A program made the translations under genes and the position numbers. Below the pieces are notes generated by a model. The model saw only the letters and a list, made by a program, of their open reading frames with translations. It searched no databases and was not told where the DNA came from. From the IMG/VR virus record IMGVR_UViG_3300027832_000038, positions 1 through 42,169 of that record: DNA of 42,169 nt; one strand, written 5' to 3'. Positions 10,347-22,164 of this stretch are shown piece after piece (the stretch's first letter is position 1; every line of letters starts with the position of its first letter). Origin of the DNA: a virus.

Positions 10347-12437
10347 ATGAAACAACCGATCGACGCATTAGAAGCAGCAGCCAGATATGTGGCATCCGGC
10401 TACCGGGTGCTCCCAATCAAACCTGGCGAGAAACGCCCACCGATGAAAGAGTGGACGAAGGCGGCAACGACCGACCCGACCACCATCGTCAACTGGTTCG
10501 CACCAGACGGCACCTACCACGACCACGGCATCGGACTCGCCCTCGGCTGGCAAGACACCCCGTTCGGGCAGCGCTGCGTGTTCGCCATCGACCTCGACGA
10601 ACACGACCCCGACCAATCAGGCGGAGCAGCATGGCAACGGCTCGTCATGGAACACGGCGACCCCGGCGACACCGTCACCGCAGCAACAGGCGGCAACGGA
10701 ATGCACCTACTGTTCGCCTCCGAGACACACGTCCGCAACGGCAAGCTCGCACCCGGCGTCGACGTCCGAGGCGACGGCGGACAGATCGTCGTCGCCCCAA
10801 CCATCCACCCCAGCGGCCAGCCGTACGTCTGGCTCGAAGGCATGGCGCCCTGGGAACACGAACTCCAAGACGCACCCGACTGGCTCATCGAACTCGTCAC
10901 CGAAACCGAACGGCCACCGAAGCAACGCATCGACATGCCCGTCAACAACGGCAGCAGCGGCAGGATCGGCACCGAGAAAGGGCCAGCCGACATTCTCCGA
11001 GAACACTGGAACTGGGCTGACCGGCTCGGTGCAGCCGGATGGAAGTTCAGCCACTCCCAAGGGAACGACGAACACTGGGTGAGGCCAGGCAAAGAAGTCC
11101 GCGAGGGAACGTCGGCCGTCCTCCACAACGACACCGGCGTCCTCGTCCTGTTCTCCACCGACGCCAGCGTCCACACACTGCACTCCACCGGCTCGACCAA
11201 CCCGGACGGTTCCGTCAGCCTGACACCGTTCCATTTCTTCGCCGCGACAGCACACGGCGGCAACACGAAAGCAGCGGCGTCGACGATCCGGCTGAAACAC
11301 AACGCCGAGCAGGCAGCTAGTCAGCTAGTCAGTAACCAGACGGTTACCCGACGTTTCGTTGACCCCGACGACGACGACGAACTCGACGGTGACCTCGACG
11401 ACGACGACGTCCCAGTCAACCCACACGACGACCTCGGCCTGATCAACTGGAGCGAAGCGTTCGGCAACCACGCACCAGAAGTACCGATCATCGCTGGACT
11501 TATCTTCCCTGGCCGGTGGACTGCGCTTGTCGCACCCGCCAAGGCAGGCAAGTCGACGTTGGCGTTGCACATAGCTCATCGACTGGCGCGCGGCATCGAC
11601 CCGTGGGACGCCAACCTCCTGCTACCTGACGGGCCTATGGCTGTGCTCTACCTTGACGCCGAGATGGGCAGGCTCGACACTGTGGGCAGAGTCAAAGCGA
11701 TCCCACTTTCGGCGAGCGACCTCGACAACCTGGCGTACACCGACCTGCCCCACAAGCTCGACCAGATCGAAACAGCCTCATGGCTTGCCCGGGCCGCCAA
11801 CCTGATCCAGCCGTCCGTCGTCATCCTCGACGGCATCAACGGGTTCGTCACCGGCGCAGAGAAAGATGACACGCCGTGGCGAATGCTCTACGAGTTTGCT
11901 ATCGCACCGTTGAAGCGGGCTGGGATCGCCGTCATATCAACCGACAACACCGGCAAGGACGAGACGATGGGGGCGCGCGGTTCGACTGTGAAGACAGACA
12001 AGGCCGACGCCATTTTTACGATGCGCGCCGGTCGCGACGAATACATGCACCACACCACGACCATCACTCGCAAGCACGCACGCACCACTTCGTTCGTCGA
12101 TCAGATGACACTCATCGTGAAGGGTGTCGGCACCGGCCAGATCGAATACGTGAGGCCCGGTGCCGCCCGGTCGGTGCCAGCCATCGTGACCCGTGAAGAC
12201 ATTCTGCGGGTGTGCCGAACACTCACGGCACTCGGCCTCCCTGTGACTGCCAGCGTCAACGAGGCGGCCAAGGAGCTACGCATCGAAGGCTTCTCGGTGA
12301 GACAGTCGATGATCGCATCGGCTGTCGAGTACCGGAGGGAAGGCAACCCGGTCGATCAGGAAGGCGACCACCTGCCGACCGTGCCACCTAGCCAGCTAGT
12401 CAACGAAGTACCCGAGCAAGAAGAGGATCTGTTCTGA
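10347..12437 (+). CDS. Primase-polymerase / RecA-fold helicase fusion
   Basis: Residues 1-190 match bifunctional primase-polymerases: AAARYVASGYRVLPIKPGEKRP, catalytic DLDEH at 82-86, TGGNGMHLLF and the later GGQIVVAPTIHPSG. Residues about 365-600 form a RepA/RecA-like ATPase with Walker A APAKAGKST (about 395-403), LYLDAEMG, Walker B VVILDGIN and a STDNTGKDETMGARGS stretch. The protein would prime and unwind DNA at the phage fork. An acidic linker (DDDDELDGDLDDDD) joins the domains, and just before it sits the composite of both repeat families (11317-11348), read as ASQLVSNQTVTR. Another CTAG element lies near the 3' end. The stop overlaps the next start (TGATG). Confidence 0.8.
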   Translation: MKQPIDALEAAARYVASGYRVLPIKPGEKRPPMKEWTKAATTDPTTIVNWFAPDGTYHDHGIGLALGWQDTPFGQRCVFAIDLDEHDPDQSGGAAWQRLVMEHGDPGDTVTAATGGNGMHLLFASETHVRNGKLAPGVDVRGDGGQIVVAPTIHPSGQPYVWLEGMAPWEHELQDAPDWLIELVTETERPPKQRIDMPVNNGSSGRIGTEKGPADILREHWNWADRLGAAGWKFSHSQGNDEHWVRPGKEVREGTSAVLHNDTGVLVLFSTDASVHTLHSTGSTNPDGSVSLTPFHFFAATAHGGNTKAAASTIRLKHNAEQAASQLVSNQTVTRRFVDPDDDDELDGDLDDDDVPVNPHDDLGLINWSEAFGNHAPEVPIIAGLIFPGRWTALVAPAKAGKSTLALHIAHRLARGIDPWDANLLLPDGPMAVLYLDAEMGRLDTVGRVKAIPLSASDLDNLAYTDLPHKLDQIETASWLARAANLIQPSVVILDGINGFVTGAEKDDTPWRMLYEFAIAPLKRAGIAVISTDNTGKDETMGARGSTVKTDKADAIFTMRAGRDEYMHHTTTITRKHARTTSFVDQMTLIVKGVGTGQIEYVRPGAARSVPAIVTREDILRVCRTLTALGLPVTASVNEAAKELRIEGFSVRQSMIASAVEYRREGNPVDQEGDHLPTVPPSQLVNEVPEQEEDLF
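11317..11328. repeat. Intragenic CTAG-N4-CTAG element (TCAG)
   Basis: In frame in the primase-helicase gene, 2 bp before a GTAACC palindrome, together forming a composite element. Confidence 0.85.
11331..11348. repeat. Intragenic GGTAACC palindrome (left arm AGTAACC, spacer AGAC)
   Basis: The only copy of this family outside 15.8-22.1 kb. It encodes SNQTVT and is joined to a CTAG element. Confidence 0.75.
12388..12399. repeat. Intragenic CTAG-N4-CTAG element (CCAG)
   Basis: Lies about 50 bp before the stop of the primase-helicase gene and encodes SQLV in frame. Confidence 0.85.
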
Positions 12438-12670
12438 TGACCGACGCTAACTTCATGGAAGCCGACTGTGTCCACGGTGGTGTGTGGCACGACTGCGACC
12501 AGTGCTCCGCCGACGACCAAGAGATACGCGACGCCGAGCGCCGGACGCTACGGATCCTGGTGGCACGCATCGAGCTACTGTTAGCGGAAGCCGACGCCAG
12601 CATCAGGTCAGGTGACGACTGGAGCAACATCTTCATCCACGTCGGCGACAGTACGGAAAAGCTTACGTGA
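12437..12670 (+). CDS. Small acidic protein with a Cys/His motif
   Basis: The 77-residue product begins with a possible metal site (C-VHGGVWHDC-DQC) and continues as an amphipathic helix (RRTLRILVARIELLLAEAD). It overlaps both neighbours (TGATG and GTGA), so it is co-translated with the helicase. Function unknown. Confidence 0.6.
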   Translation: MTDANFMEADCVHGGVWHDCDQCSADDQEIRDAERRTLRILVARIELLLAEADASIRSGDDWSNIFIHVGDSTEKLT

Positions 12671-13098
12671 GCCGCCCGCTATGGGCGTTGGACGAACTCG
12701 ACCGTGTGGTCGGGTCCGAGGCGCTGGCTTCTTCGCCGACCCGATGGAACGTCGGCCAGGGAGAATGGGATTACCTCCATCTGCTGCCACGCAAAACTCT
12801 CCGAAGGTTGCGCGGTGCCAGGTACATGCGGGTCGGCGGGATGCAGCCGGACGTGCTCGCCGAACTGATCGCACCGAACGTGGCTGGTTGCGACTCGACT
12901 GACGCAGCGATGGAATGGTATGTGAAGACGTGCCTTGTTGCTGTCGCCGAGGCACGTCTCATCGCCGGACGCAAACATCGGCTACGGGTCGCTCAACGCA
13001 ACGGCCACCAGAACTACTACCAGTACCGGACGGAGTCCGCAAAACGGCAAGGGTACGATTCGGTCTACAAGATGCGGAAAGGCAGGGGCTGGGGATGA
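12667..13098 (+). CDS. Small basic protein of unknown function
   Basis: The 143-residue product starts at a GTG overlapping the previous stop. A basic, aromatic C-terminus (HRLRVAQRNGHQNYYQYRTESAKRQGY...) and a helical middle suggest nucleic acid binding. It resembles hypothetical proteins from replication regions of other actinophages. No family recognised. Confidence 0.6.
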   Translation: MSRPLWALDELDRVVGSEALASSPTRWNVGQGEWDYLHLLPRKTLRRLRGARYMRVGGMQPDVLAELIAPNVAGCDSTDAAMEWYVKTCLVAVAEARLIAGRKHRLRVAQRNGHQNYYQYRTESAKRQGYDSVYKMRKGRGWG

Positions 13099-13298
13099 AC
13101 CATCCGATCACTGGCAAGCCGTTCAACTACGATCTGGTTTGCCGGACGTGTGTCCACTTCTCTGACAAGATTCGCAACAGCCGCAGTGTCAAGTACCGGA
13201 CCACTACCTGCGCTCTCGACCCGGAGAACCGCAACCTTGCCAACATCGTCGGGGTCAGCTGGGCTGCGCATCCGGCGTGCTCTCAACACAAGCACTAG
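13095..13298 (+). CDS. Small zinc-ribbon-like protein
   Basis: The 67-residue product overlaps the previous gene (ATGA). It has four cysteines and several histidines in the spacing of a small metal-binding fold (CRTC near residue 16, TTCALD, HPAC). Its stop TAG (13296-13298) is contributed by a CTAG element shared with the convergent ligase gene. Confidence 0.6.
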   Translation: MNHPITGKPFNYDLVCRTCVHFSDKIRNSRSVKYRTTTCALDPENRNLANIVGVSWAAHPACSQHKH

Positions 13299-13306
13299 CA
13301 GGCTAG
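13295..13306. repeat. CTAG-N4-CTAG element (CAGG) supplying two stop codons
   Basis: The left CTAG contains the stop of the plus-strand gene and the right CTAG the stop of the minus-strand ligase. Confidence 0.85.
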
Positions 13307-14118
13307 TGAGTGAGGAGGACGGTGCGGTCAGTCAACGCCCCGTCGAGTTGTTCCACGTCGCAGTCCATTGCTTTCTTGTCGGTGCGGTTGCGGACGATTC
13401 TTGGCTGGACTAGCCGTGGCGTTTCTTTGCTGGCGACGTAGAGGTATTCGACTTCGACGACGCTGCCGAGCTCGACGGCCTCTCTGCCGATCAGCGAGCA
13501 TCCGCCTACCTCGATCAGCTGGTCCCCTTTGACCAGTCCGAGGACTACGGAGGTGGGACTTTGCTCGATCACGATGCAGTCCACGGTCTGTGTAATCTTG
13601 ATCTTGAGAACGTGCCGTGTGCGTGTGTTTGTCCTGCTGTACGTGCCGGTCCTGCGCTTGACTACAACGCCCTCGCCGTTCTGCGCTATCACCTTGCCCC
13701 ACAACTCCCGCTTGGCGGCTGTCGTGGACGCCGACGGCAGTATGTGGACGCGGGCACGGCCGACCATGTCAAGCATTGGCGATAGCGCCTCAAGGTAGGA
13801 GCGGCGCACGCTCTGCGGCTCGCGGGTGAGGTCTGTGCTGACGACCGTGGTGATATCGAACAGCCAGAGACGTCCGTCTGCCATGAGTTCGCCGTCAACT
13901 GCCAGGCCAGGCAGGCCGCCCAGTTCGGCGGCGATGGCGGGATGGTGACGCACGCCCGACTTGGTGGAGAACGAAACGATCCCGTCGTCGTTGACTGTCA
14001 CTGCGCAGCGGACGCCGTCGAGCTTCTGCTCCATTACCCAGTCGTCATCGTTGATGTAGCGGTCCACCGACAGGACGCTGGCTGAGTGATACCGCATGCT
14101 GCCTGCCGAGTTTGTCAT
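13303..14118 (-). CDS. ATP-dependent DNA ligase
   Basis: The 271-residue protein contains the nucleotidyltransferase motifs in order: QKLDGVR (adenylated K32), DGEL (75-78), LWLFD (84-88), EGVVVKRR (149-156) and LKIK (171-174), followed by a short C-terminal OB-like part. This is a minimal phage-type ligase that seals nicks in DNA. It has its own strong promoter (14128-14156) and lies downstream of the Ku-like operon on the same strand. Bacterial NHEJ also uses an ATP-dependent ligase with Ku, so the pair may cooperate; this is inference. Confidence 0.85.
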   Translation of the reverse strand: MTNSAGSMRYHSASVLSVDRYINDDDWVMEQKLDGVRCAVTVNDDGIVSFSTKSGVRHHPAIAAELGGLPGLAVDGELMADGRLWLFDITTVVSTDLTREPQSVRRSYLEALSPMLDMVGRARVHILPSASTTAAKRELWGKVIAQNGEGVVVKRRTGTYSRTNTRTRHVLKIKITQTVDCIVIEQSPTSVVLGLVKGDQLIEVGGCSLIGREAVELGSVVEVEYLYVASKETPRLVQPRIVRNRTDKKAMDCDVEQLDGALTDRTVLLTH

Positions 14119-14127
14119 ACTTCAATC

Positions 14128-14156
14128 AGTATAGCTAGCTTGCCACTGGTTTGCAA
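14128..14156 (-). promoter_or_regulatory. Ligase promoter
   Basis: On the minus strand TTGCAA (14156-14151), 17-bp spacer, TATACT (14133-14128), then 9 nt to the ATG. A single CTAG (14135-14138) sits in the spacer at the same place as in the 15801-15829 promoter. Confidence 0.75.
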
Positions 14157-14168
14157 GCTGGAACGCAA

Positions 14169-14200
14169 AGAACCCCCCGACCGTAAGGTCGAGGGGTTCT
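14169..14200 (-). terminator. Terminator of the Ku operon
   Basis: An inverted repeat with GACC/GGTC around a GTAA loop and AGAACCCC/GGGGTTCT arms (one mismatch) lies just after the last operon gene. On the minus strand it is followed by TTTGCG. It may also act in the other direction. Confidence 0.7.
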
Positions 14201-14202
14201 CG

Positions 14203-14214
14203 CTAGCTGGCTAG
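14203..14214. repeat. CTAG-N4-CTAG element (CTGG)
   Basis: Directly after the stop of the last Ku-operon gene and before the terminator. Confidence 0.85.
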
Positions 14215-14367
14215 CTAATCAGGTGTCGATGAAGACGGGTCAACGTCACCCTCTTGCGGTGCATTGAGGCTACCGAAAGCCAGACATGGGATGCACTGCC
14301 CCTTGTAAAGCTCGGTGGCCGGACTACAACAGTAGTCACACCGACGGCCGGTGTATTCAGCCGCCAT
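14215..14367 (-). CDS. 50-residue zinc-ribbon protein
   Basis: Translation gives MAAEYTGRRCDYCCSPATEL..., with CDYC near residue 10 and CIPC near 27, the spacing of a small zinc ribbon, then an acidic end. The ATG overlaps the upstream stop (TGATG). It is the last gene of the Ku operon. Function unknown. Confidence 0.55.
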   Translation of the reverse strand: MAAEYTGRRCDYCCSPATELYKGQCIPCLAFGSLNAPQEGDVDPSSSTPD

Positions 14368-14471
14368 CAGAACAACACGATCTCAAGAACACACCCGAGG
14401 ACGAATAGCAGCGGGATCGCTGCGATCATCAGGCAGTGGCGGAAAGTGATTTGCTCTTCGTGCTCACTCAT
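14367..14471 (-). CDS. 34-residue single-span membrane peptide
   Basis: The peptide starts MSEHEEQITFRHCL and continues as a hydrophobic helix (MIAAIPLLFVLGCVLEIVLF) to its end. Start and stop both overlap neighbouring genes (ATGA, TGATG), which is the main support for it being real. Role unknown. Confidence 0.5.
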   Translation of the reverse strand: MSEHEEQITFRHCLMIAAIPLLFVLGCVLEIVLF

Positions 14472-14665
14472 ACCACCAACCCTGCCTTCCTCAAATCACG
14501 GAGCGCCTGCTTGCCAGCATTGCGATCCGACGGAGAAGACGACACTGTCACCCGCCCCCCACTGGGCGGGCACCAGTACTCGTGCCCGTTCCTGTTCGTG
14601 ATCGTCCAACCCAACCGGCGGGCCAGCTTCGCCGCATGATCCAAATCCTTGTGACGTCGGGCCAT
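14468..14665 (-). CDS. HicA-like RNA-binding protein
   Basis: The 65-residue protein (KDLDHAAKLARRLGWTITNR, GHEYWCPPSGG, VTVSSSPSD, ALRDLRKAGLV) follows the HicA/YcfA double-stranded-RNA-binding-like fold: helix, GW-x-beta, H in the second strand, TPSD-like turn and a final helix. HicA toxins cleave mRNA and are paired with a HicB antitoxin, but no HicB-like gene is adjacent. Many actinophages carry similar solitary proteins of unknown role. The ATG at 14665 overlaps the Ku stop. Confidence 0.55.
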   Translation of the reverse strand: MARRHKDLDHAAKLARRLGWTITNRNGHEYWCPPSGGRVTVSSSPSDRNAGKQALRDLRKAGLVV

Positions 14666-15588
14666 CACTTCGCCTTCGCTTTCGACCCGGCCGTCGCCTT
14701 CTTCGCAACAGCCTTCTTCGCAACAGCCTTCTTCACCGACTTGCGTGCCTCCATCGACGCAGCGATGGACGCCGCTAGCTCAGCCATCACATCGACCACG
14801 ACCACAGACGGCGCACTAGCTGGCGAGTCGCCAACCGCCACGCCACACGACGCCGCCTTCGAGTCAATGAACTCTTGCACCTTGACCGGCGTGTCATCAA
14901 TGACCGGCTCTGACATGACACCGACCGAGTCGATGAACTGGCCCATCATGTCGATGGCGCCATCAGCATGTTCGATGACCGGCAACTCACGGGCCTCACG
15001 AACGGCATCTGCCGTGATGATGGTCCGCATGTCGCCAGTGTGATCGAGCAGCCCGAACCGTGGGCCGCCACGAACCACGAACCGGATGAGTGCCTGCACC
15101 TGACGGTTCGCCATACCGGTGAGCAGCAGCGAGAACGCCGCCTGGTTCGCCACCTGAGCGGACGCCCGCTTGTCGTTGCGGGCACGCACCTGGACCAGAC
15201 CGTCGATGACATACCTGCCAGCATCGGCAGCCGGTACGAACGAGACGATCTTGGCCTCGCCTGTATCGCCGTACACTTCGGCCAGGTCGGCGTCGTCGAC
15301 GACAACCCACTTGCCAGCACCCTTGCCCGCTGCGGCTTCCGCCATGCGAGTCACGTTAGCCGGGTCGATGATGTCGCCGGTGTCCTTGCGGACATGCACC
15401 CGGCCGACGCTGATACCCGGGTCGCCGTTGAGTCGTTCGCTGCGGTTGATGGCAACGTCTGACACTGCGGTATAGATAGACAGCGGGAACATCATCGACC
15501 CTGCGGTCAACGTGATGCTGTTGGTGGCCCGACTCGGTGCCGCTGCATTGCGGTCGAGTGTGATGGGCGTGGTGGTTGCGTTGTTCAT
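14665..15588 (-). CDS. Ku-like DNA end-binding protein
   Basis: The start at 15588 has AGGAGGG 7 nt upstream; the open frame extends further back without a ribosome site. The 307-residue product resembles bacterial Ku: SITLTAGSMMFPLSIYTA at the N-terminus corresponds to the Ku beta-barrel start, followed by GKWVVVDDADLAEVYG, AKIVSFVPAADAGRYVIDGL and VQALIRFVVRGGPRFGLL. The C-terminal Lys/Ala tail (KKAVAKKAVAKKA...) is like that of actinobacterial Ku. Ku forms a ring on double-strand ends and recruits ligase. Phages Omega and Corndog carry Ku homologues thought to help circularise their genomes. Identity is from motif memory, not alignment. Confidence 0.65.
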   Translation of the reverse strand: MNNATTTPITLDRNAAAPSRATNSITLTAGSMMFPLSIYTAVSDVAINRSERLNGDPGISVGRVHVRKDTGDIIDPANVTRMAEAAAGKGAGKWVVVDDADLAEVYGDTGEAKIVSFVPAADAGRYVIDGLVQVRARNDKRASAQVANQAAFSLLLTGMANRQVQALIRFVVRGGPRFGLLDHTGDMRTIITADAVREARELPVIEHADGAIDMMGQFIDSVGVMSEPVIDDTPVKVQEFIDSKAASCGVAVGDSPASAPSVVVVDVMAELAASIAASMEARKSVKKAVAKKAVAKKATAGSKAKAK

Positions 15589-15635
15589 AGTGTTTCCCTC
15601 CTGGGAATTGTTGTTGATGTTGGTTGATTGATTCT

Positions 15636-15791
15636 TCATGAGCTTGTCTTTCGGAGAATGCCGAACACTGCGCCGGTTGCGGCGAGCATCAGGGAGAAGC
15701 TGACGAGTGCGACAGCGCACACAAACTTGAAGGTCCATTCGAGAATGGACCAGAGCACGCTCTGCCATGTTGGTGCTGGTTGATTGTTCAT
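15636..15791 (-). CDS. 51-residue membrane peptide
   Basis: First gene behind a strong promoter. The peptide MNNQPAPTWQSVLWSILEW... has one hydrophobic span (FKFVCAVALVSFSLMLAATG) and ends RKTSS. It precedes the Ku-like gene in the same transcript. The start is 9 nt from the -10, leaving no room for a normal ribosome site. Function unknown. Confidence 0.5.
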   Translation of the reverse strand: MNNQPAPTWQSVLWSILEWTFKFVCAVALVSFSLMLAATGAVFGILRKTSS

Positions 15792-15800
15792 GTTGCTTTC

Positions 15801-15829
15801 ATTATAGCTAGCTTGTCATGGGATTGCAA
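15801..15829 (-). promoter_or_regulatory. Promoter of the Ku operon
   Basis: On the minus strand TTGCAA (15829-15824), exactly 17 bp, TATAAT (15806-15801). A CTAG (15808-15811) lies in the spacer, and a GGTAAC palindrome lies 5 bp upstream of the -35. Confidence 0.8.
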
Positions 15830-15830
15830 G

Positions 15831-15856
15831 CGCCGGTAACACGGTGGTTACCGGCG
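15831..15856. repeat. Extended GGTAACC palindrome upstream of the Ku promoter
   Basis: Core 15835-15852 (GGTAACA-CGGT-GGTTACC), extended by CGCC/GGCG. It lies between the end of the upstream zinc-protein genes and the -35 hexamer, so it could act as operator or terminator hairpin. Confidence 0.8.
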
Positions 15857-15860
15857 CTGA

Positions 15861-15872
15861 CTAGCCGACTAG
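15861..15872. repeat. CTAG-N4-CTAG element (CCGA; TCGG on the sense strand)
   Basis: Pairs with the palindrome at 15831 and directly follows the stop of the 42-residue gene. Confidence 0.85.
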
Positions 15873-15873
15873 C

Positions 15874-16002
15874 TCACCACGGACAGCCGTGACTACGCTT
15901 GCCACTGTCACACAGAGGACAGCACGGCCGCCGCCCCAGCAGGTAGCGGAGAAAGCAAACCCACGACGGCACGTTGCACCACTTACACCGATGCAAACTC
16001 AT
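15874..16002 (-). CDS. 42-residue zinc-ribbon protein
   Basis: The peptide starts MSLHRCKWCNVPSWVCF and has two CxxC knuckles (CKWC, CPLC) plus a later Cys/His pair. Its ATG overlaps the preceding stop (ATGA). Last gene of the VWA operon. Confidence 0.5.
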   Translation of the reverse strand: MSLHRCKWCNVPSWVCFLRYLLGRRPCCPLCDSGKRSHGCPW

Positions 16003-16184
16003 GACTGATCCTCAAGCGGGTGCGGCGTATCTCCACACTGGCAGCACTCGGCGTCAACCCTCTCAATAGGTGCGTCCCACCAACAGACACAATGCCGACT
16101 CCCATCGCACGCCCATGCGCCCGTACACACTACGCGTGTGGGATTACCTAGCAGACGTGGCTTGCCATTCCCTTGCACGATCAT
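15999..16184 (-). CDS. 61-residue cysteine-rich protein
   Basis: Translation begins MIVQGNGKPRLLGNPTRVVC and contains CDGSRHCVC and CCQC, eight cysteines with one histidine, suggesting one or two zinc sites. The start overlaps the VWA stop (ATGA). A longer open frame continues upstream inside the VWA gene but is a shadow. Confidence 0.55.
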   Translation of the reverse strand: MIVQGNGKPRLLGNPTRVVCTGAWACDGSRHCVCWWDAPIERVDAECCQCGDTPHPLEDQS

Positions 16185-18130
16185 CGCGCCACCGACGAAC
16201 GGACACGGTCCACCAACAGTGCACCAACAGCCGGACCGAGGTCGGCTGCATGTTTGATCTGATGCAACAAGACATCGACCCCACTGAAATGATCGACCAT
16301 CGCCCATTGAGACATCCCGATACCGAACACCGCAACCAACACGCCAGCCGAACGCATCCCACGCAACTCGTCCAGGCATCTACCGTGCTTCTCCCACACG
16401 CCATCAGTGGCGACGATGCACACCTTGTTCGGCTCACGCTGCTGAGAAAGCCAGGCACTCGCAGCGGACATCCCGACCAACGGCTCAGTCGAACCTTCCA
16501 AGCTTCTCGGTACCCACACCCCGTCGCCCACCGAAGCAGGCAACTCTTTGCAATACGATCCGAATGACCACGCCTTGAACGAACCGCGCACCGACTGGAC
16601 TGCACGATCAACAGCCCACACGGACTGCATCGCACCGACCAGACCATCAGAACCCATCGAACCGGAGACGTCGGCGAGCATCGCCACCGCACACCCCGTC
16701 GAGCGGAGAGCGCCAGGATCATGCCGGTCAAACATCTCCTCGGCCCGGGTAGCGCCACCCTCACGCACCACCCGGGCCACGTTGAAACGGCCCCGGTCAA
16801 CACGCCGACGCAGGCCAGGACGGACACCGTCCATCAGGACACGCAACTCTCGGGCGATCTCCGACTCGGCAAGCTGGACTGCCACCGACACGGATATCCC
16901 ATCAACCTGGGCGTCAGCCAGCTTGATGGTCGGCATCCGGCCGGACACAACCGTCTGAGCAACCTCTTTCAGCCGCTCGTCCTGCTCCAGTGCAGAGCCG
17001 ATCGCTTTCGACCATTCCACTAGCCGCCTAGCGTCCACGTCTGAGTCGCCGCCGCCGCCGAGGCCATCGGATGAGCTATCGAGATCGCCGTCAGCGGTGT
17101 CGTCGCCGTCGCCGTCACCGCCAGCCTCATCGCTGTCGCCAGCCTCATCGCTGTCGCCAGCCTCATCGCCGCCGTCAGCCTCATCGTCGCCAGCCTCATC
17201 GTCGCCAGCCTCGCCAGACTCGTCGCCGCCTCCAGCCTCGTCGCCGCCTCCAGCCTCGTCGCCGCCTCCAGCCTCGTCGCCAGCCTCATCGTCGGCCTCG
17301 TCGTCAGCCTCATCGTCGGCCTCGTCGTCGGTAACCGTCTGGTTACCGTCGTCGTCGTCGTCGTCGTCGCTCGACGGGTCGCCAGGATCAGTCCATTCAC
17401 GGGGGACAGAACCATCTACGGCGTGACTGCCGCAATCCGATCCGAAGTCACCGACCAAAGCGTGCATACGATTCACAATGTCAAGCGCCTCGACGCAATC
17501 CTCAGAACCAGGATCGACCAACATCGAATATCGCATCGTCAGATCACGAACAGCGTCGGCGATGTACCCCGAATGCTCGGCAGCAAACGCATCGTACGCC
17601 TCAGACCGAAGCGCCAAAGGAAGATAGGTGCGGCCGACGAGTAGCGGATACACGTTGCTCAAATTGAGCGGACGATTATTGACAGGCTTAAGCAGAATGT
17701 GAGAGACGGCGCCCATCATGTGCGGCGCCCACCCCGGGAAGTCACGCAGCAGCAGCCGCTCGATCCGGGCATCCTCGATCATGTTCCACGTACGATGCAG
17801 CCGCCCGCCCTTAAGCGACCTACTCAACGGCTCATCGTCACGGGGTGAGTACCGGGAATGTGCGAAACCGTGCAACGCAGCACCGCACCACGCAGCAATC
17901 GCCGTCGGCTTACCGGTAGCCATCGACGGCAAATACCTGGAGCCAAGCGTCAAGTACCGACCGCACGACGACGTGGACTCAGGACCGCAGGCGCTTCCCG
18001 ACACATAGACCTGCTCAACAAGCGAGCCGTTGATCTGACACACGACGCCGATGTACTCGGCGAACCGTGCCAGGTTGGGTACCTCGGAACCCGGTATTCC
18101 TTCCACTCGAATTACAAGTTCACTGTTCAT
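16181..18130 (-). CDS. CobT-like VWA-domain protein (partner of the AAA+ ATPase)
   Basis: The start at 18130 has AGGAGGG 6 nt upstream; the open frame runs back through a repeated leader but has no other ribosome site. The 649-residue protein has three parts. The N-terminal part contains ALHGFAHSRYSP and WNMIEDARIERLL, as in CobT-like proteins. The middle (about 260-370) is a very acidic Asp/Glu/Gly repeat. The C-terminal VWA domain has the MIDAS motif DVSGS (487-491) and ATDG (about 574-577). This is the architecture of cobaltochelatase CobT and of phage CobT-like proteins. MoxR/VWA pairs usually remodel or load metal into a partner protein. No cobalamin genes are present, so the target is unknown. 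A CTAG element (17020) and a GGTAACC palindrome (17330) lie in frame. Confidence 0.75.
   Translation of the reverse strand: MNSELVIRVEGIPGSEVPNLARFAEYIGVVCQINGSLVEQVYVSGSACGPESTSSCGRYLTLGSRYLPSMATGKPTAIAAWCGAALHGFAHSRYSPRDDEPLSRSLKGGRLHRTWNMIEDARIERLLLRDFPGWAPHMMGAVSHILLKPVNNRPLNLSNVYPLLVGRTYLPLALRSEAYDAFAAEHSGYIADAVRDLTMRYSMLVDPGSEDCVEALDIVNRMHALVGDFGSDCGSHAVDGSVPREWTDPGDPSSDDDDDDDGNQTVTDDEADDEADDEADDEAGDEAGGGDEAGGGDEAGGGDESGEAGDDEAGDDEADGGDEAGDSDEAGDSDEAGGDGDGDDTADGDLDSSSDGLGGGGDSDVDARRLVEWSKAIGSALEQDERLKEVAQTVVSGRMPTIKLADAQVDGISVSVAVQLAESEIARELRVLMDGVRPGLRRRVDRGRFNVARVVREGGATRAEEMFDRHDPGALRSTGCAVAMLADVSGSMGSDGLVGAMQSVWAVDRAVQSVRGSFKAWSFGSYCKELPASVGDGVWVPRSLEGSTEPLVGMSAASAWLSQQREPNKVCIVATDGVWEKHGRCLDELRGMRSAGVLVAVFGIGMSQWAMVDHFSGVDVLLHQIKHAADLGPAVGALLVDRVRSSVAR
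17020..17031. repeat. Intragenic CTAG-N4-CTAG element (CCGC)
   Basis: Inside the VWA gene between the acidic repeat and the VWA domain; encodes ARRLV on the minus strand. Confidence 0.8.
17061..17360 (-). repeat. Low-complexity tandem repeat encoding the acidic linker
   Basis: Short repeats of GCCTCATCGTC- and GCCTCGTCGCCGCCTCCA-type units (plus strand) encode DEADDEA and DEAGGG repeats. Such tracts vary in length by slippage. Confidence 0.75.
17330..17347. repeat. Intragenic GGTAACC palindrome (spacer GTCT)
   Basis: Lies at the start of the acidic-linker coding region and encodes GNQTVT in the VWA frame. Confidence 0.85.
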
Positions 18131-18214
18131 AGCTAACCCTCCTGGGTTGTTGGTGGAATGCAGGATGCACGCCCTACTACCATCGACGAAGCCGATAGCA
18201 CTAGGCCGTGGCCC

Positions 18215-18232
18215 GGTAACCGTGCGGTTACC
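18215..18232. repeat. GGTAACC palindrome (spacer GTGC)
   Basis: In leader copy 1, about 85 bp before the VWA start. The perfect arms extend to 11 bp with GCCC/GGGC. Confidence 0.9.
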
Positions 18233-18237
18233 GGGCA

Positions 18238-18249
18238 CTAGCCGACTAG
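18238..18249. repeat. CTAG-N4-CTAG element (CCGA)
   Basis: Contains the AAA+ gene stop codon (minus-strand TAG at 18248-18246). Confidence 0.85.
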
Positions 18250-19187
18250 CTCGACGCCTTCAACTCGGCGACGATCATGTCGATCCGCCCGTCGATCGTC
18301 GTCTCGATCACTTCCTTCTCAATGCCAGTGAAGTCTTCGAGCAGGAAACCGAGCGCCGCCTCAGCGTCACCGTGGTAGCGGACTTTCTTCTGGAAACGGA
18401 GCAGCGTCGAAGTCGGCAGGATCGAACGGATATGAGTGTGAGCACGCACCGCCCAAGCCACATCGAGCAACGTCTCAGACCCGATCAAGACGTCTTCGGT
18501 CGGCCGGTCATAACCCCACGGCAGCTTCACGAACCGGCGGGCAACCGCCTCATCGACCTCGAACGTGCCAGCATAAGACGGCGGGTTCGCAGTAGCAGCG
18601 AACATCAACGTCTTGGCTTTGAACGTCGGCAGATTAGCCTCCGGCACCGACAAAGTGCGGGCCTCCGAAGTGATCGACATAAGCTCGGTCGCCCCGACCG
18701 CATCCATCCGGTTGATCTCGTCGAACAGTACGACGCCGGGCAGATGGCGGGCAGCGAACAGCAGGTCACCCTCAAGCCAGCCCTGAACATCGTCACGGTC
18801 AGTCATCAGACCGCCGACAGTGGACCGGCCCATCAGGTTCGGGATCGACATATTCGGTGAGCAGTCGACTCGAAGATACGGAAGCCGAAGTAGACCGCAG
18901 ACGTACTCGATGAGCGTCGACTTGCCGGACCCGGCATGACCGCAAACCATGATGTTCTCGCTGAGCACGATCGCATCGACGACATGCTGCACGCCGCTCC
19001 GGCCGAACACGTCACGGTCAATGAACGAACCCTCGACCGGCACGTCAGGGACGAACGCAGCAGCACGCCGCCAATGCTCCTCCGGCACATCACGATACAG
19101 ATCAAACACTGGCTGCCCCTCGACGACCATCGTAGATATGATGTTCTCGACGTCGGCGACAGCGGTGGTGGTGGTGGTGGTGGACAT
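18246..19187 (-). CDS. CobS/MoxR-like AAA+ ATPase
   Basis: The start at 19187 has AGGAGGG 5 nt upstream. The 313-residue protein has Walker A GHAGSGKS (83-90), the CobS-like RVDCSPNMSIPNLMGR segment, Walker B VVLFDEIN (152-159), sensor FAATANP (196-202) and an arginine-finger region DEAVARRF (213-219). AAA+ rings of this type work with a VWA partner, here the adjacent CobT-like gene, which carries an identical leader. The pair probably forms an ATP-driven chaperone or chelatase-like complex acting on a phage or host protein. A poly-Thr N-terminus (MSTTTTTT) is shared with the next gene upstream. Confidence 0.8.
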   Translation of the reverse strand: MSTTTTTTAVADVENIISTMVVEGQPVFDLYRDVPEEHWRRAAAFVPDVPVEGSFIDRDVFGRSGVQHVVDAIVLSENIMVCGHAGSGKSTLIEYVCGLLRLPYLRVDCSPNMSIPNLMGRSTVGGLMTDRDDVQGWLEGDLLFAARHLPGVVLFDEINRMDAVGATELMSITSEARTLSVPEANLPTFKAKTLMFAATANPPSYAGTFEVDEAVARRFVKLPWGYDRPTEDVLIGSETLLDVAWAVRAHTHIRSILPTSTLLRFQKKVRYHGDAEAALGFLLEDFTGIEKEVIETTIDGRIDMIVAELKASS

Positions 19188-19270
19188 GGTAACCCTCCTG
19201 GGTTGTTGGTGGAATGCAGGATGCACGCCCTACTACCATCGACGAAGCCGATAGCACTAGGCCGTGGCCC

Positions 19271-19288
19271 GGTAACCGTGCGGTTACC
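19271..19288. repeat. GGTAACC palindrome (spacer GTGC)
   Basis: In leader copy 2, about 85 bp before the AAA+ start. Confidence 0.9.
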
Positions 19289-19293
19289 GGGCC

Positions 19294-19305
19294 CTAGCCG
19301 ACTAG
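19294..19305. repeat. CTAG-N4-CTAG element (CCGA)
   Basis: In leader copy 2, between the AAA+ gene and the stop of the upstream gene. Confidence 0.85.
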
Positions 19306-19312
19306 ACCAGAG

Positions 19313-20209
19313 TCACGGCTTGACCTTGACGTTCAACACGGGACGCGTCGGCGTCTTAACCGCCGCCCTGACCGGCGTCTTGACCGCCGTCGTAGGCTTA
19401 CGCTTCGACGACGCCGACGAACCACTCCGGCCCGCCGCAGCCGTCGGCGCAGCCGGTGCCTTGGCCTTGGCCTTGGCCTTGGCCGCCGACCGTGCATCGA
19501 ACGCCTCGAACACGTCGACGATCTGCCGCACCGCCTTAGCCAACGCGGCGTCAACCGACAGGTCGGCGACAGTCAACCGAGCATTGATGGCGTCAGCCAA
19601 GGTGAGCAAGCCGATCGTGCCGAGGTCCAGCGGGGTAGCCCCGCCGGTAACCGCTTGGTTACCGGCAGCTAGTCTTATTGAATCCTTCCAACGTCCAGCA
19701 GCAGCATCAGCAGGCTTTTTCTTGCCGTTCGACTGGGGCTTGTGATCAGGGTCGGCGACCTTGAGCCGAGCGACAACGGAAGCCTTGGTGACGTTGCCCG
19801 GACCGCCCATATTTTTGACGAGTCCCGCCAGGATCTTGCCGCCAGCGTCAGAACCGAGCCGGTTCAATACCTTGTGCGCCTCAAACGAGACGCCGTCGAC
19901 ACGGTCAGCTGGCGCCCACACCTTGACCACCGAAAGCTCATCACGGATCGACTTGAGCTTAGACCGGGCATTCTTCGTGGACCCGGCGACGCCATTGGCA
20001 GTGTCACGGTGATCGCCGTGCATCTGCTTGAACAGAGCGGTATCACCGATACGGGCAACGATCTCCGTCTGCGTGTACTGCGGCATCGACACGGCGAGAC
20101 TGACCACGCCGTCGAGGAACTGCCATTTTGTAGCCGACGTGGTCGCCAGCCGAAACATCTCGGCAGCCTCGTCAAGCGTTGGCGCAGCAATAGTAGTGGT
20201 GGTGGACAT
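19313..20209 (-). CDS. Basic-tailed protein of unknown function
   Basis: ATG 20209 has AGGAGG 6 nt upstream and its own promoter. The 298-residue protein has a helical N-terminal body (TLDEAAEMFRLATTSATKWQ, ARSKLKSIRDELSVVKVW) and a long Lys/Ala/Pro-rich end (AAKAKAKAKAPAAP..., TPVRAAVKTPTRP) like a histone-H1-type DNA-binding tail. A GGTAACC palindrome (19646) is read in frame as GNQAVTG, and a 28-bp repeat lies beside it. It is in one transcription unit with the AAA+/VWA pair, so it could be their substrate or a DNA adaptor; that is inference. Confidence 0.6.
   Translation of the reverse strand: MSTTTTIAAPTLDEAAEMFRLATTSATKWQFLDGVVSLAVSMPQYTQTEIVARIGDTALFKQMHGDHRDTANGVAGSTKNARSKLKSIRDELSVVKVWAPADRVDGVSFEAHKVLNRLGSDAGGKILAGLVKNMGGPGNVTKASVVARLKVADPDHKPQSNGKKKPADAAAGRWKDSIRLAAGNQAVTGGATPLDLGTIGLLTLADAINARLTVADLSVDAALAKAVRQIVDVFEAFDARSAAKAKAKAKAPAAPTAAAGRSGSSASSKRKPTTAVKTPVRAAVKTPTRPVLNVKVKP
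19646..19663. repeat. Intragenic GGTAACC palindrome (spacer GCTT)
   Basis: In frame in the basic-tailed protein gene; followed by the CTAG-containing 28-bp repeat. Confidence 0.9.
19668..19695. repeat. 28-bp repeat, copy 1
   Basis: Identical to 21188-21215 over 28 bp. Here it is coding on the minus strand (RWKDSIRLA). Confidence 0.9.
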
Positions 20210-20232
20210 TGCGAACCTCCTGGTTCGTGACC

Positions 20233-20250
20233 GGTAACCGGGTGGTTACC
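20233..20250. repeat. GGTAACC palindrome (spacer GGGT) in a 5' leader
   Basis: Lies between the promoter at 20266-20294 and the ribosome site of the 20209 start. Confidence 0.9.
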
Positions 20251-20265
20251 GGAATGGAAACACTG

Positions 20266-20294
20266 ACACTAGCCCGCTAGTTGATAGCTTGCAA
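20266..20294 (-). promoter_or_regulatory. Promoter of the AAA+/VWA operon
   Basis: On the minus strand TTGCAA (20294-20289), 17 bp, TAGTGT (20271-20266). The CTAG-CCCG-CTAG element (20269-20280) overlaps the -10 and the spacer. Confidence 0.65.
20269..20280. repeat. CTAG-N4-CTAG element (CCCG)
   Basis: Overlaps the -10 hexamer of the AAA+/VWA operon promoter. Confidence 0.85.
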
Positions 20295-20312
20295 ATGGCA
20301 GTGAAGTGTGGT

Positions 20313-20394
20313 CGGGCAGGGTTGCCCGACCGGACAACCAACGGACACGCCGTTGGCTCTCCGGCCTGCCGGTAACCGAACGGTTACCGGCCGA
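20313..20394. repeat. 82-bp hairpin-rich repeat, copy 1
   Basis: Matches 21023-21104 with about 4 differences. It contains three successive inverted repeats: GTCGGGCA/TGCCCGAC (starting just upstream at 20311), CCAACGG/CCGTTGG and the GGTAACC palindrome at 20371-20388. It lies after the stop of the 98-residue gene, so it could act as a terminator. Confidence 0.85.
20371..20388. repeat. GGTAACC palindrome (spacer GAAC)
   Basis: Third hairpin of the 82-bp repeat copy 1, about 13 bp after the stop of the minus-strand gene at 20401. Confidence 0.9.
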
Positions 20395-20400
20395 CACGCA

Positions 20401-20697
20401 TCAGTAGTCCACGTCGATGCAGTAATGCGTCACCGGATCCGTGACACTCACCGAATAGACGCCACCGGCACCGGCACAATCGCCCGCCGGATCGACAGTC
20501 CAGAAGTCCGACTCGCCGACAAGAATCCACGTCTGCGAACCGTCAAGATCACACGGCGGGACATCGCCCCAACCAGACCACGTCGTCGCCGGACACGACA
20601 CCGGAACAGGAACGGTAACCGGCTGGCTACCGGCACAATTGACGCCGCACACGGACAGAACAAGCGCCGCCGGACCGGCCAAGAAAGACCTGATCAC
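20401..20697 (-). CDS. Small secreted or lipoprotein-like protein
   Basis: The 98-residue product starts with a signal-peptide-like segment (MIRSFLAGPAALVLSVCGVNC); the following residues AGSQPVT come from a GGTAACC palindrome. The rest is Trp/Asp/Cys-rich (TTWSGWGDVPPCDLDGS) and ends HYCIDVDY. It may be exported and anchored. The start overlaps the upstream stop (ATGA). A superinfection-exclusion role is possible but unsupported. Confidence 0.5.
   Translation of the reverse strand: MIRSFLAGPAALVLSVCGVNCAGSQPVTVPVPVSCPATTWSGWGDVPPCDLDGSQTWILVGESDFWTVDPAGDCAGAGGVYSVSVTDPVTHYCIDVDY
20614..20631. repeat. Intragenic GGTAACC palindrome (right arm GGCTACC)
   Basis: One mismatch in the right arm. 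It lies just after the signal-peptide coding region. Confidence 0.7.
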
Positions 20698-20975
20698 TTC
20701 GACGCCGCCACTTCTGACCGAAGCGTCTCACCGGCACGCCACACGGCGATCTGCCGAGTGATCGTTTCAATGGTCGCCCCGAACGGGCAGCCGATCTCCG
20801 TGACGATATAGCAGGCAGCCTCCCGTGCCGTGACACGGTCAGCGGTACCCATCGGCACATAATCTTCGCCGGACGTGTCGCCGTAAACGACATCGTAGAA
20901 CGCCGACTCGCCGGTGACGCACGGCCAGACCGTGACGACACGATCCGCAGAAGTGGACTGGAAATAGCTGGACAT
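20694..20975 (-). CDS. Small protein of unknown function
   Basis: ATG 20975 has TGGAGGG close upstream. The 93-residue product (SSYFQSTSADRVVTVWPCVTG, ACYIVTEIGCPFGATIETITR) is mixed alpha/beta with three cysteines. The open frame upstream of this start runs through palindromes and is not coding. No family recognised. Confidence 0.5.
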   Translation of the reverse strand: MSSYFQSTSADRVVTVWPCVTGESAFYDVVYGDTSGEDYVPMGTADRVTAREAACYIVTEIGCPFGATIETITRQIAVWRAGETLRSEVAASK

Positions 20976-20994
20976 GAACCCTCCAAAGGGTGAC

Positions 20995-21012
20995 GGTAAC
21001 CGGACGGTTACC
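20995..21012. repeat. GGTAACC palindrome (spacer GGAC)
   Basis: 20 bp upstream of the start of the 20975 gene, a 5'-leader position like that at 20233. Confidence 0.9.
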
Positions 21013-21022
21013 GGTGAATGAC

Positions 21023-21104
21023 CGGGCAGAATTGCCCGACCGGACAACCAACGGACACGCCGTTGACTCTCCGGCCTGCCGGTAACCGAATGGTTACCGG
21101 CCGA
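21023..21104. repeat. 82-bp hairpin-rich repeat, copy 2
   Basis: Counterpart of 20313-20394 at a constant offset of 710 bp. The first stem has lost two base pairs relative to copy 1. Confidence 0.85.
21081..21098. repeat. GGTAACC palindrome (spacer GAAT)
   Basis: In the 82-bp repeat copy 2. The spacer differs from copy 1 by one base. Confidence 0.9.
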
Positions 21105-21187
21105 CCCGTGGCGCTGCATCTAGACATGGCACCGGTGGGATGAATGTCCACCGATGGCACGGCCGGACCGGCGAGCGTGCCGGTCTG

Positions 21188-21215
21188 GCTAGTCTTATTG
21201 AATCCTTCCAACGTC
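21188..21215. repeat. 28-bp repeat, copy 2
   Basis: Identical to 19668-19695 but here outside any gene; it begins with a CTAG half-site. Confidence 0.9.
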
Positions 21216-21232
21216 ACACGATCCGGAAGTCC

Positions 21233-21250
21233 GGTAACCAAACGGTTACC
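21233..21250. repeat. GGTAACC palindrome (spacer AAAC)
   Basis: 18 bp after the 28-bp repeat copy 2, in the gene-poor stretch. Confidence 0.9.
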
Positions 21251-21312
21251 GGGCCGGACGCTCGCCGAAAGCGCTGCCGAAGTCAACCCTCGCAGTCAGG
21301 GCGCTACACGAC

Positions 21313-21330
21313 GGTAACCGGATGGTTACC
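21313..21330. repeat. GGTAACC palindrome (spacer GGAT)
   Basis: Isolated copy, 62 bp beyond the 21233 palindrome, in non-coding sequence. Confidence 0.9.
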
Positions 21331-21478
21331 GGCCGCACACGCCAGACCTGTCGACGTGCATAGCAGTAGCTCTATTGCCAAATCTTGACCATGCTCGCGC
21401 CGCTCCAGATCGCCAGTCACCTGCGAGCCGAGCCCTATAGGGCCGGCCGGTCAGTGTCGCCCCTATGTCTTCAGGGCG

Positions 21479-21490
21479 CTAGCCAGCTAG
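21479..21490. repeat. CTAG-N4-CTAG element (CCAG)
   Basis: The only complete CTAG element in the gene-poor region; no promoter hexamers were seen next to it. Confidence 0.85.
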
Positions 21491-21553
21491 TGCATTGCGT
21501 GGTCAGCCGCCTACGGCGGCCGTTGTCAAATTGGGCGATGCCGCCCGGACACC

Positions 21554-21571
21554 GGTAACCAAGCGGTTACC
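21554..21571. repeat. GGTAACC palindrome (spacer AAGC)
   Basis: About 60 bp downstream (minus sense) of the 21633-22073 gene. Confidence 0.9.
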
Positions 21572-21632
21572 AGTCTCCGGCCGGCACCGACCGGCCTAGC
21601 TCACGCCAGGTCGTCGGTGCCAGTTGCTCCGG

Positions 21633-22073
21633 TCAGGCCGACAGGGCGGCCAGAATGTCTTCGGTCGTGCAACCTGCGGCGAGTGCCCTGCGAGCCGCCG
21701 CCGTGACGTCTGCCAGACGTTCTTTCTTGCCCTTAGGCCGTGACTCTCGGCCGGTAACCAACTCGTTACCGGAGGCAAGCTTGCGCTTGACTTCTGCCTT
21801 ACGTTGCTTCCACACGTTCTTCGCAGACAGTGTGACCGCCGCCGATTCTTCAACCGTCAGGACCATGCTTCCCGGAGTTGCCGCATTGATGCGGCGCTTA
21901 ACATAGAGCGACCTAAGCGCCTCGGCCAGTTTCTCGTCGCCTAGTGCCACGACCATGATCGCCTGCCATGCGTCGCTTGCCTTAGCCTGCCATTCTCCAA
22001 CCTTGACATCCGAGTTAATGACCGAAGCAACTAGTGCCCGATGGTCGGTCGTGAGTGTGATTGTGTTCGCCAT
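21633..22073 (-). CDS. First gene of the early leftward region, function unknown
   Basis: The 146-residue protein is mostly helical (HRALVASVINSDVKVGEWQA, DEKLAEALRSLYVKRRINAA) with a very basic segment (NVWKQRKAEVKRKLASG, RPKGKKERL) and a small C-terminal helical unit (TAAARRALAAGCTTEDILAAL). It is read from the best consensus promoter in the genome, with a GGTAAC palindrome in its leader and another in its coding region (GNELVTG). This is the position of a phage early regulator, and the basic segment suits DNA binding, but no known fold is recognised. Confidence 0.55.
   Translation of the reverse strand: MANTITLTTDHRALVASVINSDVKVGEWQAKASDAWQAIMVVALGDEKLAEALRSLYVKRRINAATPGSMVLTVEESAAVTLSAKNVWKQRKAEVKRKLASGNELVTGRESRPKGKKERLADVTAAARRALAAGCTTEDILAALSA
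21753..21770. repeat. Intragenic GGTAACC palindrome (right arm CGTTACC)
   Basis: In frame in the early leftward gene, encoding GNELVTG. Confidence 0.8.
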
Positions 22074-22095
22074 TGGAATCGTCCATTCTGTTAGC

Positions 22096-22113
22096 GGTAA
22101 CGAGAGTGTTACC
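22096..22113. repeat. GGTAACC-like palindrome (GGTAACG-AGAG-TGTTACC)
   Basis: Lies 23 bp past the -10 of the leftward early promoter, in its transcribed leader. Confidence 0.7.
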
Positions 22114-22136: not shown

Positions 22137-22164
22137 AGTATATCGGCTTCCAAACTCGTGTCAA
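22137..22164 (-). promoter_or_regulatory. Strong leftward early promoter
   Basis: On the minus strand TTGACA (22164-22159), 16-bp spacer, TATACT (22142-22137): close to the sigma70 consensus. It reads into the 22073 gene. Confidence 0.75.

Follow-up and report, generated by a model that had tools for sequence, protein, structure and literature searches.

A private array of inverted repeats in the Ku-encoding leftward block of a phage genome: candidate sites for a dimeric regulator

A short palindrome that is repeated many times in one part of a phage genome raises the question of what reads it, and of whether it is read in DNA or in RNA. The virus record IMGVR_UViG_3300027832_000038, whose 42,169 bases make up the window analyzed here, poses this question with the dyad GGTAACC-N4-GGTTACC, which an initial annotation had located at 16 positions and had interpreted as the operators of an early-region regulator. 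The sequence speaks more for a dyad that a dimer reads in DNA than for an RNA hairpin, and we give roughly even credence to the idea that the sites bind a dimeric, probably phage-encoded protein that lowers the transcription of the leftward genes or sets its timing.

The dyad array and its half-sites

A scan of the window for GGTAACC-N4-GGTTACC with up to three mismatches returned 17 matches, against 0.86 expected from shuffled sequences. All 16 of the positions listed earlier proved to be correct, and the extra match, at 9541, is new. Fifteen of the 16 dyads fall within 6.3 kb, from 15835 to 22113 (binomial p=5e-12; the p-values given here and below assume independent sites and rest on our own gene calls). 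The family had been described as confined to the early leftward region, and this holds for those 15 copies in the leftward block but not for the dyad at 11331, which lies in the rightward Prim-Pol gene, nor for the possible decayed copy at 9541. A symmetric weight matrix gave the 16 dyads 22 to 36 bits, the 9541 copy 14.5 bits and any other position at most 7.6 bits; the matrix was trained on the same 16 dyads, and these scores show separation rather than independent discovery. Two pairs of dyads arose by duplication of larger blocks (18134-18249 and 19190-19305, 99% identical; 20313-20398 and 21023-21108, 94%), which leaves about 14 independent copies. The duplicated blocks are of the leader type, and each includes a dyad.

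When the 32 half-sites are aligned, GTAAC is invariant except for a single G. Just outside GGTAACC, 30 of the 32 half-sites have a C, and 25 have a C at the next position out; the base just inside is a purine in 30, so that the 4-bp spacer takes the form RNNY. The spacers had been thought to be fixed in length and otherwise different in almost every copy; the length is indeed always 4 bp, but the bases are not free. Conservation covers a unit of about 20-22 bp, (C)CGGTAACCR-NN-YGGTTACCG(G), in which the half-site CGGTAACCR occurs twice around a 2-bp center, and every exact copy has its half-site centers 11 bp apart, as the initial annotation had stated. Each arm also fits GGTNACC, a restriction-type sequence (BstEII). 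An explanation of the arms by restriction was set aside because 26 of the 28 GGTWACC words in the window lie within full dyads; the left arm of every exact copy has A as its central base, and the right arm has T.

Two features of the half-sites, the lack of compensation between arms and the purine rule that each half obeys independently, argue for DNA rather than RNA as the form that is recognized. The left and right halves do not covary (at the inner position 5 are identical, with 7.0 expected), and none of the 7 arm variants among the 14 independent copies, all from the window and none from relatives, is matched by a Watson-Crick compensating change. This comparison of arms had been proposed as the way to separate the two readings, and its outcome disfavors the hairpin. 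In the leftward RNA, however, 3 of the 7 variants can still pair as G-U, so that the RNA reading is only weakened. This reading holds that the dyads form hairpins with 4-nt loops on the leftward transcripts, where they would affect mRNA stability, termination or translation, possibly while bound by a protein. All 16 dyads can fold as stems of 6-12 bp (-10.6 to -26.2 kcal/mol), and three of them end 19-23 nt ahead of a start codon, directly before the Shine-Dalgarno sequence. The flanks at positions -22 to -12 also show an excess of self-complementarity (61, with 43.5 expected; p=0.0016), but a few sites, one of them in a GTC repeat, are responsible for this excess, and the nearest flank positions show nothing significant. 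Beyond this, the arms are conserved far more than pairing requires, a loop gives no reason for a purine rule that is strand-symmetric and independent in the two halves, and an Rfam search returned no match. We consider an RNA function for the dyads unlikely.

The dyad is private to the window phage. Among 2.9M viral contigs, stricter forms of it gave only single, chance-level matches (12 and 8 stretches), and in about 85,000 genomes the strict dyad gave 28 single matches, which are spread over mixed phyla at the chance level with no actinobacterial clustering; both searches may have passed over records very close to the window. The one close relative (L017/L024, 75-76% identical in the terminase) has no dyad in a sequence that stops before the array region. 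A search with the array region for distant DNA similarity gave only marginal matches among sequenced phages, and a literature search for the arm sequences returned, by title, only primers and constructs. A finder of repeated dyads, which recovers the window array, detected no comparable array in 17 portal relatives (about 30% identity; some read in part), only two minor 4-copy families, and none in Gray, which encodes CobST, or in BAjuniper. The distant portal relative G015 (L156) has four TTTCAG-N2-CTGAAA dyads, at positions 25, 556, 2135 and 6263.

Placement relative to genes and promoters

Eleven of the 15 dyads in the leftward block are noncoding, in a block that is itself 23% noncoding (p=6e-5), and four are coding. 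That several dyads lie in the 5' leaders of leftward genes was claimed at the outset, and the association is stronger than was stated, since six of the seven leftward genes that have a leader carry a dyad in it. The distance from dyad to start codon is 22 nt for gene A, 19 for B, 23 for C, 43 for the 51-aa gene, 83 for D and 84 for E. Five dyads are crowded into a 657-bp noncoding stretch, 20976-21632. The genes of the block (22.1-13.3 kb), the predicted promoters and the dyads are as follows.

21633..22073, minus strand: gene A, 146 aa, first leftward gene, relatives not recognizable
20694..20975, minus strand: gene B, 93 aa
20401..20697, minus strand: gene B', 98 aa, looks secreted
19313..20209, minus strand: gene C, 298 aa, relatives not recognizable
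18246..19187, minus strand: gene D, MoxR/CobS-type AAA+ ATPase
16181..18130, minus strand: gene E, similar to phage CobT-like proteins
15636..15791, minus strand: 51-aa gene, membrane-type
14665..15639, minus strand: Ku (PF02735; phrog_4873)
13303..14118, minus strand: ATP-dependent DNA ligase (PF01068), no dyad in its leader

22137..22164, minus strand: predicted sigma-70-type promoter TTGACA-16-TATACT, 11 of 12 consensus bases, strongest leftward promoter in the region
15801..15829, minus strand: predicted promoter TTGCAA-17-TATAAT of the 51-aa and Ku genes

22096..22113: dyad in the gene A leader, 22 nt before the ATG and about 17 nt downstream of the point where transcription is predicted to start; inner C degenerate in each half
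21753..21770: dyad within gene A, encodes GNELVTG
21554..21571: dyad in the noncoding stretch
21313..21330: dyad in the noncoding stretch
21233..21250: dyad in the noncoding stretch
21081..21098: dyad in the noncoding stretch, in the 86-bp block duplicated at 20313-20398; duplex GCCGGTAACCGAATGGTTACCGGC
20995..21012: dyad in the gene B leader (and the noncoding stretch), 19 nt before the ATG
20614..20631: dyad within gene B', with one arm variant, encodes GSQPVTV
20371..20388: dyad in the gap that separates B' from C, in the other copy of the 86-bp block
20233..20250: dyad in the gene C leader, 23 nt before the ATG
19646..19663: dyad within gene C, encodes GNQAVTG
19271..19288: dyad in the gene D leader, 83 nt before the ATG, in the duplicated 116-bp block
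18215..18232: dyad in the gene E leader, 84 nt before the ATG, in the second copy of the 116-bp block
17330..17347: dyad within gene E, encodes GNQTVTD, in an acidic repeat region
15835..15852: dyad upstream of the 51-aa gene that precedes Ku, 6 bp upstream of the predicted -35
11331..11348: dyad in the rightward Prim-Pol/helicase gene, encodes SNQTVTR, between the primase and helicase domains
9541..9558: possible decayed 17th dyad, near the 3' end of an exonuclease gene, 14.5 bits

All five coding dyads (in A, B', C, E and Prim-Pol) are read in the frame that gives G-N-Q-x-V-T-G. This bias is weak by itself, since one of the three frames holds TAA and only two are open. The predicted promoter upstream of the 51-aa gene resembles a second sequence, TTGCAA-17-TATACT, at 14128-14156 on the minus strand; the two have CAAGCTAGCTATAMT in common and stop some 10 nt short of the ATG codons of the 51-aa gene and the ligase gene, respectively, and they look like promoters of leaderless mRNAs.

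Several other features of the window were observed along with the dyads. Ku, an ATP-dependent ligase, a MoxR/CobS-type ATPase and a CobT-like protein are encoded together in a single phage block, 13303-19187, and the recombination and primase genes sit in the rightward left arm, which counts against a firm label of early for the leftward block. A comparison of the Ku protein with sequenced phages gave no match at E 0.01, and no relatives of Ku, Prim-Pol or gene D were found in the viral contigs. A search for tRNA genes found none. The sequence CTAGTCTTATTGAATCCTTCCAACGT occurs both at 19669-19695, within gene C, and at 21189-21215, in the noncoding stretch. A second dyad family, CTAG-N4-CTAG, comprises 27 pairs with a spacing of exactly 8 bp and extends genome-wide (for example at 2373, 4069, 5218, 6245, 13295, 25161, 40444 and 41376); its members lie mostly at the 3' ends of genes, where they often overlap the TAG stop codon, and several adjoin GGTAACC dyads. 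Finally, a 1704-aa gene contains 300 bp repeated at 99% with 345-bp spacing (34695-35339).

Proposed transcriptional control and its alternatives

In the reading that we favor, a dimer on the dyads would act on RNA polymerase. The dyad at 22096 begins 23 nt after the -10 element of the main leftward promoter, and a dimer bound there would occupy about 17-34 nt into the transcript, where it would block or slow the polymerase. The dyads in other leaders and within genes would likewise hinder an elongating polymerase, and with such roadblocks at all of the dyads the entire leftward block could be shut down jointly. We infer protein binding, repression, an early timing of the block and a phage origin for the binder, perhaps gene A or gene C. 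A phage regulator is preferred to a host regulator because the dyad is private to this phage. Gene A is a candidate for the binder solely by its position, and gene C is a second candidate. In the actinophage phiC31, many dyad operators, which are conserved inverted repeats, are spread across the early region and are bound by the phage repressor.

A precedent for repressor sites that block elongation is provided by the stoperators of the Cluster A phages L5 and Bxb1, where the repressor stops both initiation and elongation (PMC6550527, PMC9283540). Like the window dyads, stoperators are present in many copies in operators, intergenic spaces and genes. Stoperators differ in being 13 bp long, in following the direction of transcription and in their recognition by a protein that binds as a monomer; known stoperators are also asymmetric and work in one orientation, whereas the window dyads are symmetric and read the same on both strands, and this is the first of several points that weigh against the roadblock proposal. 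A recognizable promoter is lacking beside most of the dyads, so that the operator interpretation in its simple form, a site beside a promoter, fits 22096, perhaps 15835 and, weakly, 20233; what holds best of the original claim is a DNA site for a dimeric protein, and a promoter-operator model covers few copies. The 15835 dyad lies upstream of the -35 element, a position typical of an activator. The regulator was not identified: genes A and C had no recognizable relatives in our searches, and single-sequence structure models of both were too poor for a fold search. In addition, no integrase or repressor gene was recognized among the genes searched, and hence no lysogenic state that the dyads might maintain is apparent.

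A role of the dyads in replication initiation, partition or DNA organization, and not in transcription, is a quite unlikely alternative. The cumulative GC skew reaches its minimum at about 22.0 kb, adjoining the array, but the skew changes at the point where gene direction switches. An AT-rich stretch (40-48% GC) at 22.05-22.3 kb could be taken as a further sign of an origin, but the promoters account for it. The 657-bp noncoding stretch with its five dyads would also suit such a function, and the authors who described the Cluster O dyads (see below) likewise doubt a control of initiation (PMC4351075). Against this, iterons are compact direct repeats, whereas the window dyads are scattered through 6.3 kb, one to a leader, and no ParA/ParB-type gene was recognized.

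It is very unlikely that the dyads bind an OmpR-family response regulator of the host (GlnR or MtrA), which the phage would thereby use to sense its host or would titrate. The core GTAAC-N6-GTTAC does fit the GlnR box of S. venezuelae, GTnAC-n6-GTnAC (PMC10704036), as does every arm-perfect copy in the window, and it fits the Streptomyces MtrA box GtnAcC-n5-GTnAcn (PMC13189361); the 11-bp period is typical of such regulators, and relatives of the window phage infect actinobacteria. However, these regulators bind direct repeats in host promoters, and their boxes are far more variable than the window dyads, in which the A/T centers are strictly inverted; the genome survey described above, with its single, chance-level matches, also speaks against a host motif. 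Least probable is a small mobile or self-spreading palindrome without function for the phage: some copies did spread within the duplicated blocks (116 bp at 99%, 86 bp at 94%), and the coding copies all use the same one of two open frames at seemingly permissive, insertion-like positions in the proteins, but outside these blocks only about 20 bp are common and the spacers differ apart from RNNY, so that the arms appear to be held by selection, the copies are concentrated in leaders and a single gene block, and no related element was found in other viral contigs or genomes.

Comparable arrays in other phages

The closest parallel in layout comes from the Cluster O phages (Corndog, Firecracker, Dylan and Ryadel), which carry more than 30 copies of a 17-bp dyad, TGTTCGG-N3-CCGAACA, of unknown function (PMC4351075, PMC6439249). 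These dyads are densest in the leftward block where Ku is encoded as well, and the authors inferred a dimeric binder (PMC4351075). Both arrays have near-invariant 7-bp inverted arms around a short variable center, include intergenic and coding copies, are concentrated in a Ku-encoding leftward block and are private to their group. The arms are nevertheless unrelated, the spacer is 4 bp of RNNY in the window and 3 bp of A/T in Cluster O, and the window has 16 copies, 15 of them in one block. No window protein matched the right arm of Firecracker at E 0.01, and with no detectable common protein in that arm the relationship is a resemblance in layout and not membership. The dyad finder recovered the Cluster O arrays as well (26 copies in Firecracker). 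Ku as a shared cause of dyad arrays was rejected, since the Ku-encoding phage Baka has no array in the 49 kb that were read.

The Cluster O repeats were reported to be not closely tied to translation starts (PMC4351075). In Firecracker, by our count, 14 of 25 dyads precede an annotated leftward start codon by 19-33 nt, where about 1.2 would be expected (p=5e-13). Many of the gaps are only about 40 bp, which forces part of this spacing, but in four of the five gaps longer than 90 bp the distance from dyad to start codon is still 25-33 nt. In the window, three of 15 dyads lie 19-33 nt before a start codon (p=0.004). We suggest only tentatively, and regard it as somewhat doubtful, that the window phage and the unrelated Cluster O phages have a common and previously undescribed form of control, in which a dimer would act after initiation, and not at promoters, on private dyads about 20-30 nt before the starts of genes in a Ku-encoding leftward block, either as a roadblock or through the coupling of transcription and translation.

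Repeats just upstream of non-structural gene starts are also known from the Cluster K phages TM4 and Pixie, as the start-associated elements SAS and ESAS; the inverted repeats of the ESAS give no indication of compensatory changes in RNA (PMC3203893). The SAS is 13 bp long and overlaps the ribosome-binding site, and the ESAS is an imperfect 17-bp repeat with spacers of 4-13 bp, whereas the dyad of the window has a shorter and stricter sequence and occurs within genes as well. Reminiscent of the SAS, the Shine-Dalgarno sequences of genes B, C, D and E in the window lie inside a small inverted repeat, such as ACCC-AGGA-GGGT or AACC-AGGA-GGTT (upstream of 20975, 20209, 19187 and 18130).

Dispersed dyad arrays were described in 2015 in one group of closely related actinobacteriophages and were left unexplained. 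A second, unrelated phage has now been found with different arms and a similar layout, with Ku in the block and with start-codon spacing in both, and this turns the arrays into a pattern that can be tested. If it is true that one small phage protein silences a whole operon by way of such dyads, it would provide a compact tool for actinobacterial genetics.

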